Assembly (NCBI RefSeq): GCF_000317045.1
Contig: NC_019703.1
Location: 3,336,501-3,400,500, forward strand
DNA: 64,000 nt
DNA from: Geitlerinema sp. PCC 7407
GTDB taxonomy: Bacteria; Cyanobacteriota; Cyanobacteriia; PCC-7407
Reading direction: 5' to 3'
In this document: piece after piece, positions 37,413 to 39,512 of the stretch
How positions within the stretch are numbered: position 1 is the stretch's first letter
Layout of the letters: each line of letters starts with the position of its first letter
The notes under the pieces: generated by a model
What the model saw: the letters and a program-made list of their open reading frames with translations, nothing else
Told to the model about the DNA's origin: nothing
Database searches by the model: none
Made by a program: the position numbers and the translations under genes

Positions 37413-37814
37413 TTACTCCGCCACAGGCTCAAAAGTGAGAGCCGCCGAATTGAGGCAGTAGCGCTGACCCGTGGGGCGCGGCCCGTCCTCAAATACGTGG
37501 CCCAGATGGGCATCACAGGCCGCGCACAGCACCTCTACTCGCCGCATAAAGAAGCTGTTGTCTGATTCGTAGCGAATGGCCGACTCACTCAGGGGAGCCC
37601 AGAAGCTAGGCCAGCCCGTACCCGACTCATACTTGGTTTCAGCGCTAAAGAGGGGTGTACCGCAGCACACGCACCGGTAGGTTCCGGGGGCTTTGTTGTC
37701 ATGGTAAGCGCCTGTAAAAGCTCGCTCTGTGCCTTTTTTGCGCGTAATTCGGAACTGCTCGTCGGTGAGTTGCTGTTTCCACTCAGCTTCGGTCTTTTGG
37801 ATTTTGGGTGCCAT
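37413..37814 (-). CDS. msrB: Peptide-methionine (R)-S-oxide reductase
   Basis: MsrB repairs methionine-R-sulfoxide in proteins. Seen: zinc-binding pairs CVCC and [34 protein letters not shown] (split [11 protein letters not shown]) and the catalytic Cys in RYCLNSAAL. The length of 133 residues is that of a single-domain MsrB. ATG 37814 is used, with AAGGA six to seven bases upstream; an earlier GTG at 37832 would add six residues. Likely co-transcribed with the MMADHC-like gene, which begins 5 bp after its stop. Confidence 0.96.
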
Positions 37815-38002
37815 GAAGGAATCCTTTTTCACGAATGCGTTCCCGAGGCGATCGCCGTTGAGCGCGACACGGCGAACTGTGGAGCGATCGCCCTCTGCCC
37901 CTCGATCCTAGCGTTCCCTCAGAGACCAATGGAGTCGAGATTTCCACCCATTAAGCTCAATTTTTTAGATTGCGGCAGATTAGGGTTTGAGAAATTTCCA
38001 AC

Positions 38003-38110
38003 CTATTTCTTGCTGGTGAAAATCGTGGTGAACATCATCAACATTCCGCCCACAAAAATCGCCACAGCCAAACCCCCCGTGATTTGGTCGAGAAATGCAG
38101 TGTTTTCCAT
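38003..38110 (-). CDS. 35-residue single-helix membrane microprotein
   Basis: A complete small frame, ATG to TAG, in the gap between msrB and mutY. The product has a short acidic N-terminus (MENTAFLDQ), one membrane helix (ITGGLAVAIFVGGMLMMF) and a C-terminus TTIFTSKK with two Lys. This is the architecture of low-mass subunits of photosystems, cytochrome b6f and NDH-1, and of SliP4-type light-induced proteins, but I cannot match it to a named one. AAGG lies about ten bases upstream of the ATG. Frame quality is good: no rare composition, helix begins and ends cleanly, positive-inside C-terminus. Confidence 0.72.
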   Translation of the reverse strand: MENTAFLDQITGGLAVAIFVGGMLMMFTTIFTSKK

Positions 38111-38330
38111 ATTTCAAAAGCCTTTTTGACAGCACGCAATTTGCCTGAAAGTCCTCGCCTTCGAGTCCTTGAAGCCTTGCCAAGGGCACGATCAGCGAGA
38201 AGCCTTCACCCTCAAGTTTAGCGGCCTTCGGATCCCCGTTTTTCTTTGGGAGCGGCCCCGGACCAGGCGTTTTTCCCGGGGCGATATGCTGAAACAATGC
38301 CCTTTACAGGAACGTTTACAGGAAGGTTCT

Positions 38331-39512
38331 GTGTCTCCTCGGTCCAAGCGCTCTGCTCCGCCTGCGGCGGACTTGCCCCTTTTGCAGGCGATCGCCCGCT
38401 CTGCTCAGCCCGCGCCGCCCCCCACCGTCACCGAAGTCGCTGACTTGCGGCGATCGCTCCTCACCTGGTACGGCCATCAAGGGCGCGACCTCCCCTGGCG
38501 AAATACCCGCGATCCTTATGCCATCTGGATCTCGGAGATCATGCTTCAGCAGACCCAGGTCAAGACGGTCATCCCCTACTACCAGCGCTGGCTCAGCCAG
38601 TTTCCCACCGTCGAGAGCCTCGCCGCCGCCGACCAGCAGAGCGTCCTCAAAACCTGGGAAGGCCTGGGCTACTACGCCCGCGCCCGCAATCTTCACCGCG
38701 CCGCCCAAGACATCGTAGAGCGCTTTGGGGGACGCTTTCCCAGCACTCTGGCTGAGGCCATCAGCCTGCCCGGTATCGGCCAAACCACCGCTGGCGGCAT
38801 CCTGAGCGCCGCCTTCAACTTGCCAACGTCCATTCTCGACGGCAACGTTAAACGGGTTTTGGCTCGCCTGAGCGCCCTCGCCACCCCGCCCGCCAAGGCC
38901 ATGCCCCAGCTCTGGGCGCTCTCCGGGACCCTGCTCGACCCCCAGAACCCGCGAGACTTCAACCAGGCTCTGATGGACTTGGGCGCTACGGTCTGTACAC
39001 CCTCTCAGCCAGACTGCTATGGTTGCCCTTGGCAGAACCACTGTCGGGCTTATTCTCTAGGTATTCAAGCAGCTTTACCCATGCGCGAAGCGTCTTCTCC
39101 CCTTCCCCACAAGCAGATCGGCGTGGCGGTCATCTGGAATGACCAAAACCAGATTTTGATCGACCGGCGCCCCCAAAGCGGCTTGCTCGGCGGCCTCTGG
39201 GAGTTTCCGGGCGGCAAAATCGAAGCGGGCGAGACCGTCGAGGACTGCATCGTTCGGGAAATTCGAGAGGAGCTGGCGATCGACGTTGAAGTGGGCGATC
39301 ACCTGATCACGATTGACCACGCATACACCCATTTTCGGGTGACCCTTCAGGTGTATCACTGCCGTCACGTAGCCGGTGAGCCCACCCCGATCGAGTGCGA
39401 TGAAATTCGCTGGGTGACCCTCGATGCCCTAGACGAGTTTCCCTTCCCCAAGGCCAACACCCAGATCATCGAGGCGCTGCGCGCCAACGCCCCAGATCGG
39501 GCCGAAGCTTAA
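38331..39512 (+). CDS. mutY: A/G-specific adenine glycosylase MutY with C-terminal Nudix domain
   Basis: MutY removes adenine mispaired with 8-oxoguanine. The glycosylase half shows PWRNTRDPYAIWISEIMLQQTQV (catalytic Glu in SEIMLQQTQ), helix-hairpin-helix LPGIGQTTAGGI, catalytic Asp in ILDGNVKRVLAR, and the 4Fe-4S ligands C-x6-C-x2-C-x5-C in CTPSQPDCYGCPWQNHC. The C-terminal third has a complete Nudix box: GGKIEAGETVEDCIVREIREEL. The start is uncertain: GTG 38331 has AGGAAGG at good spacing; ATG 38286 would add 15 residues. A bidirectional terminator follows. Confidence 0.95.
   Translation: MSPRSKRSAPPAADLPLLQAIARSAQPAPPPTVTEVADLRRSLLTWYGHQGRDLPWRNTRDPYAIWISEIMLQQTQVKTVIPYYQRWLSQFPTVESLAAADQQSVLKTWEGLGYYARARNLHRAAQDIVERFGGRFPSTLAEAISLPGIGQTTAGGILSAAFNLPTSILDGNVKRVLARLSALATPPAKAMPQLWALSGTLLDPQNPRDFNQALMDLGATVCTPSQPDCYGCPWQNHCRAYSLGIQAALPMREASSPLPHKQIGVAVIWNDQNQILIDRRPQSGLLGGLWEFPGGKIEAGETVEDCIVREIREELAIDVEVGDHLITIDHAYTHFRVTLQVYHCRHVAGEPTPIECDEIRWVTLDALDEFPFPKANTQIIEALRANAPDRAEA

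Follow-up and report, generated by a model that had tools for sequence, protein, structure and literature searches.

The 35-amino-acid frame on the minus strand between msrB and mutY of Geitlerinema sp. PCC 7407 is almost certainly a genuine gene, whose translation we infer, and by sequence comparison it is part of a cyanobacteria-wide family of membrane microproteins that is real and carries no curated name. The gene is regarded as real since matches were found across the class, start, length, and helix are shared, and purifying selection acts in frame. That a microprotein under such strong selection has gone without a curated family name suggests that a component of cyanobacterial energy-converting membranes has so far been missed, and the role of the microprotein should be easy to test in Synechocystis, S. 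elongatus, or Thermosynechococcus.

Conservation of the microprotein frame

A sequence-only reading of the window, i.e., the whole stretch of 64,000 nucleotides analyzed here, had proposed the frame without naming its strand; coordinates and peptide were borne out, with the frame located on the minus strand and the plus strand reading differently (Table 1). Translation of this frame, complete from ATG to TAG as described there, revealed the peptide MENTAFLDQITGGLAVAIFVGGMLMMFTTIFTSKK with an acidic N-terminus, one hydrophobic helix, and a KK end. Its proposed position between msrB and mutY was confirmed by Pfam domains in both neighbors. Of the ribosome-binding site claimed in the same reading, an AAAAAGG motif is present, but it is weak at best, and Shine-Dalgarno-like motifs upstream of other family members revealed mild enrichment only. 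Neither a sigma-70-like promoter nor a terminator was found in region 37750-38450, and an Rfam search at the locus resulted in no match to an RNA family. The mutY frame stays open well upstream of its likely start (38169-38331). Near this start, and upstream of the divergent microprotein gene, a tandem 12-bp repeat (TTTACAGGAACG/TTTACAGGAAGG) is located at 38303-38326, which recalls the HLR1 box, taken by us to be the RpaB site, but has a period of 12 bp instead of 10 bp.

Table 1. Features at the microprotein locus (positions within the window)
Feature	Position	Strand	Basis and remarks
Microprotein CDS	38003..38110	-	ATG 38110-38108, TAG 38005-38003; 35 aa, subfamily A; sequence, family conservation, pN/pS
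Transmembrane helix, residues 11-30, TGGLAVAIFVGGMLMMFTTI	38021..38080	-	Per-column entropy; AlphaFold2 helix
Shine-Dalgarno-like AAAAAGG, weak	38121..38127	-	Sequence; 10 nt before ATG
msrB (methionine sulfoxide reductase B)	37413..37814	-	Pfam SelR PF01641, E 3.8e-53; 188 nt downstream of microprotein gene
mutY (A/G-specific adenine glycosylase)	38331..39512	+	Pfam NUDIX_4 and HhH-GPD; divergent, upstream; start codon tentative

When the single peptide was searched in six frames against 96 sampled genomes of the class, 67 of them gave matches at E <= 10, with a best non-self E value of 4.3e-11, compared to a best E value of 0.17 for the reversed peptide, a control of the same composition. 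Using a profile built from 23 relatives, matches at E <= 0.01 were obtained in 226 of 390 class genomes and in 111 of 160 genera. Altogether, 118 distinct peptides of 32-50 aa were read out, nearly all of which begin with Met-Glu or Met-Asp and which commonly share the helix (family motif GGLAxAIxxGGxLMMFT) and a charged end. The peptide of the window itself displays the features by which the family is defined, namely a length of 32-50 aa, a Met-Glu/Asp start, and a helix of the form GGLAxAIxxGGxLM[ML]F. Over 51 independent close pairs, differences at the three codon positions numbered 117, 58, and 384, the last being third positions, and pN/pS was 0.145 in frame, compared to values of 1.6 or higher for the remaining forward frames; the value of 0.25 obtained for one reverse frame was expected, as third positions are mirrored there. 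The sequence-only reading had named conserved counterparts in related genomes and substitutions respecting the frame as checks, and both were found, the counterparts class-wide with helix and charged end kept. The SKK end, also expected there to be conserved, is retained as a charged, basic tail, but not literally. Though 35-aa frames are common by chance, and the weak ribosome-binding site and the lack of a recognizable promoter would fit a chance open frame without a product, conservation, in-frame selection, and the kept start and length refute this in silico and leave it next to no probability.

Helix, family branches, and distribution

AlphaFold2 predicted a single helix over residues 3-33 (mean pLDDT of 86), a confident result, though hardly informative for a peptide of this kind. 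Based on entropy per column in 138 sequences, variability is lowest at A15, I18, G21, G22, and M25. The conserved residues lie mostly on one helix face with a heptad-like spacing of 15-18-22-25-29 and with G21 beside this face, and the p value for helix periodicity ranges from 0.05 to 0.13 depending on the statistic; in sequence terms, the conserved face is suggestive of an interaction interface. In subfamily A, mean charges are -2.1 on the N-side and +2.3 on the C-side, and the N-side is lower than the C-side in 109 of 109 members; therefore, the positive-inside rule predicts a lumenal or periplasmic N-terminus.

The family consists of two paralogous branches, A and B, separated with an SH-aLRT value of 99 on a short alignment in which two B-labeled rows fall among A. 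Branch A, the type found in the window, is characterized by GGxLMMFTxxWTxKK and a basic tail, and branch B by GGLxMLxSGVxxMNDD and a neutral to acidic tail, given which both branches may differ in their partner. Most genomes harbor a single copy, with one or two per genome in general and several genomes carrying one A and one B member; the Geitlerinema genome has one copy of the A type. Members from family f5 (L158, L011, L012, and L018), which we take to be Thermostichus-like, possess an additional hydrophilic C-terminal extension of 12-14 residues rich in Pro, Asp, and Lys.

In a phylum sample of 386 genomes, 99 revealed a family match, and these belong to the photosynthetic class without exception, with no match in about 197 genomes of other classes; a photosystem II (PSII) reaction-centre protein was present in 186 of the 386. 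Members of branch A were identified on named contigs from Nostocales, Leptolyngbyales, Thermosynechococcus, and others. Synechocystis, S. elongatus, and Thermosynechococcus all carry members, as assigned by named records or the norf4 marker; exact norf4 primer matches identified the g44 genomes as Synechocystis, and these carry the B-type member MENTANLDWILGAIALGILVAGLVMLLNGVKSLGK. Divergent B-type frames were also detected in family f14, probably Gloeobacteraceae, which we assume to be thylakoid-less like Gloeobacter. No copy was found on phage or viral contigs, and the sole, weak plasmid match is a B-like copy on an 880-kb replicon of Gloeothece verrucosa PCC 7822 (NC_014533.1:230307-230399) with no annotated feature beneath it.

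Within family f31, none of the six complete genomes without PSII has a member, compared to 22 of the 44 others with a clear one, a comparison that amounts to only two losses, both in reduced genomes, and is confounded by genome reduction. It gives a hint of loss of the gene together with PSII. Two of the six keep photosystem I (PSI) only, and in the remaining four psaA/psaB are absent or broken by stops. These four reduced genomes (G355, G385, G543, and G660), in which psaA/psaB, where present, consist of stop-riddled pieces, are likely from diatom endosymbionts and would be useful for loss-based testing of photosynthesis-linked genes. No member was detectable in the genomes of f2 (presumably Prochlorococcus-like), f17, f23, and g126 (presumably Microcystis-like), all of which possess photosystem genes, so that the gene is dispensable for the core process. 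As judged from these sequences, strong selection keeps it in most PSII-bearing cyanobacteria outside the small-genome marine-type group.

Known small membrane proteins and candidate roles

Searches of Pfam, NCBIfam, and PDB with the peptide, six relatives, and the profile resulted in no accepted match, so that the earlier statement that no named protein fits holds for these three databases. Matches to T4SS_pilin and VPEID-CTERM were below the cut-offs, reflecting hydrophobic composition, and were rejected; for CydX and other curated small membrane families, too, no Pfam or NCBIfam model scored above its cut-off, with chance matches below it only. In the literature searched, the family was not named and the motif LMMFT was not found in print. 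A published list of Synechocystis proteins of up to 50 aa gives psbM only at 35 aa; the Synechocystis member seems to be absent from it, with the genome of strain 6803 lying outside the sample compared. The PDB profile search revealed no chain, though Thermosynechococcus carries the gene, and a PsbT control found 31 sequences, exclusively of its own family, which speaks for a partner that is loosely bound or was not sampled.

The likeness to photosystem, NDH-1, or SliP4-type subunits put forward in the sequence-only reading applies to the architecture, but no homology was found. SliP4 (HliR1) of Synechocystis is of the same size class (37 aa), has one transmembrane helix, is cyanobacterial, and was missed by early annotation, but its start MSNLIAVAF and end PVLIFPE, known from cloning primers (PMC5126843), are not matched by the family when these primer-derived ends are compared by eye. 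A scan of 390 genomes, strain 6803 not among them, with a sliP4 29-mer gave no match. An upstream HLR1 (RpaB) site, as expected for SliP4/HliR1, which is induced by high light and links NDH-1 to photosystems, is likewise not a feature of the family, since HLR1 was found in 14 of 118 upstream regions versus 15.3 in shuffles, i.e., without enrichment. Norf4 of Synechocystis (31 aa, one transmembrane helix) is also a conserved small gene, but MTADQLLMLVVLLVPGILLSALVMGSFAKGG belongs to a separate gene of unrelated sequence that coexists with the B-type member in Synechocystis-like genomes. NdhP and NdhQ of NDH-1L are single-span proteins under 5 kDa, and NdhP, with its N-terminus predicted in the lumen (PMC4131877), has a similar N-out/C-in orientation; however, NDH-1L structures in PDB include both, and the family matches no PDB chain. 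PsbT, PsbM, and other low-mass PSII subunits share a length of about 30-40 aa and one helix, but no PDB or Pfam match links the family to low-mass subunits of PSI, PSII, cytochrome b6f, or NDH-1. The oxidase subunits CydX and CcoM are analogues in the way of working, with a single short helix supporting a large membrane enzyme in each case; in contrast to them, the family has no Pfam match and, within the phylum, occurs only in oxygenic cyanobacteria.

One-helix proteins such as NdhP, NdhQ, SliP4, Psb34, and CcoM control the assembly or association of major complexes. By analogy, and as the reading we favor, the microprotein may quite possibly be an accessory single-span protein, with a role in assembly or regulation, that docks on a membrane complex of oxygenic phototrophs. 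Insertion would require no signal peptide and, as the positive-inside rule predicts, would place the acidic N-terminus in the lumen or periplasm and the basic C-terminus in the cytoplasm; the conserved face (A15, I18, G22, and M25, with G21 beside it) would pack onto a helix that is part of a larger membrane complex found in oxygenic phototrophs, and the docked peptide would stabilize or modulate this complex as a substoichiometric, condition-dependent accessory protein. It might work like NdhP, NdhQ, SliP4, CydX, or CcoM without being a demonstrated member of any of these. A specific link to photosynthetic complexes is rather doubtful. With similar reserve, one might think of an ancient accessory protein of a photosynthetic complex, present as an A/B paralogue pair from Gloeobacter-like to heterocystous cyanobacteria and lost with PSII, which would have been overlooked on account of its length of 35 residues and a binding too weak to withstand purification.

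Such a docking role has to be weighed against the possibility that the microprotein, as a small subunit or as a regulator (CydX-, CcoM-, or KdpF-like), serves a respiratory terminal oxidase, an ATPase, or a transporter located in the same membranes and is unrelated to the light reactions. Single-span subunits of this size are typical of oxidases, with CcoM and YnhF as described examples (PMC9264385), and the divergent B-type copies in f14 would also fit; but the gene is missing from all of the about 197 non-photosynthetic phylum genomes as well as from the photosystem-less f31 genomes, and no match to the Pfam families of such subunits was found, so we consider this explanation unlikely. A resident, stoichiometric subunit of PSI, PSII, cytochrome b6f, or NDH-1 would have the right size and the N-out/C-in orientation of NdhP (PMC4131877). 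Since the profile finds no PDB chain despite the working PsbT control, and all 19 NDH subunits are accounted for in the Thermosynechococcus (T. elongatus) NDH-1L structure (PMC6992706), a tightly bound subunit present in stoichiometric amounts in the solved complexes is very unlikely, and the gene is also missing from many photosynthetic genomes.

A membrane peptide that associates with itself and, without a fixed protein partner, alters the order or curvature of the membrane or reports stress would agree with a helix rich in small residues (GG...GG) and a conserved Met cluster, and with a stand-alone gene in variable context; near-invariant A15, I18, and M25 in 138 sequences, however, are more specific than lipid packing requires, which makes it distinctly improbable. 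The short, hydrophobic, one-helix peptide also resembles a type I toxin, but one or two copies per genome, a vertical pattern, strong purifying selection, the absence of phage or viral copies with one weak plasmid match, and no RNA family match at the locus leave a toxin-like role hardly any probability.

Gene neighborhood

Neighbors of the gene differ between orders, namely CobO/BtuR in Nostocales, an AbrB-like regulator in Leptolyngbyales, and msrB/mutY in the window; an ABC permease, a UbiA-type prenyltransferase, and a response regulator were identified as well. Since neighbors are order-specific only, no common partner could be deduced from them. The NtcA motif revealed no enrichment upstream of the family. 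In most Nostocales loci (L031-L110, e.g., L061:40-1098), a CobO/BtuR adenosyltransferase-like gene with two tandem domains is located upstream on the same strand, 0-490 bp and mostly less than 280 bp away from the microprotein gene. In Leptolyngbyales-type loci (L160, L166, L167, L169, L170, and L095), it follows the gene for a cyanobacterial AbrB-like regulator (PF14250), beyond which a convergent gene for a ClC-type channel is often located.
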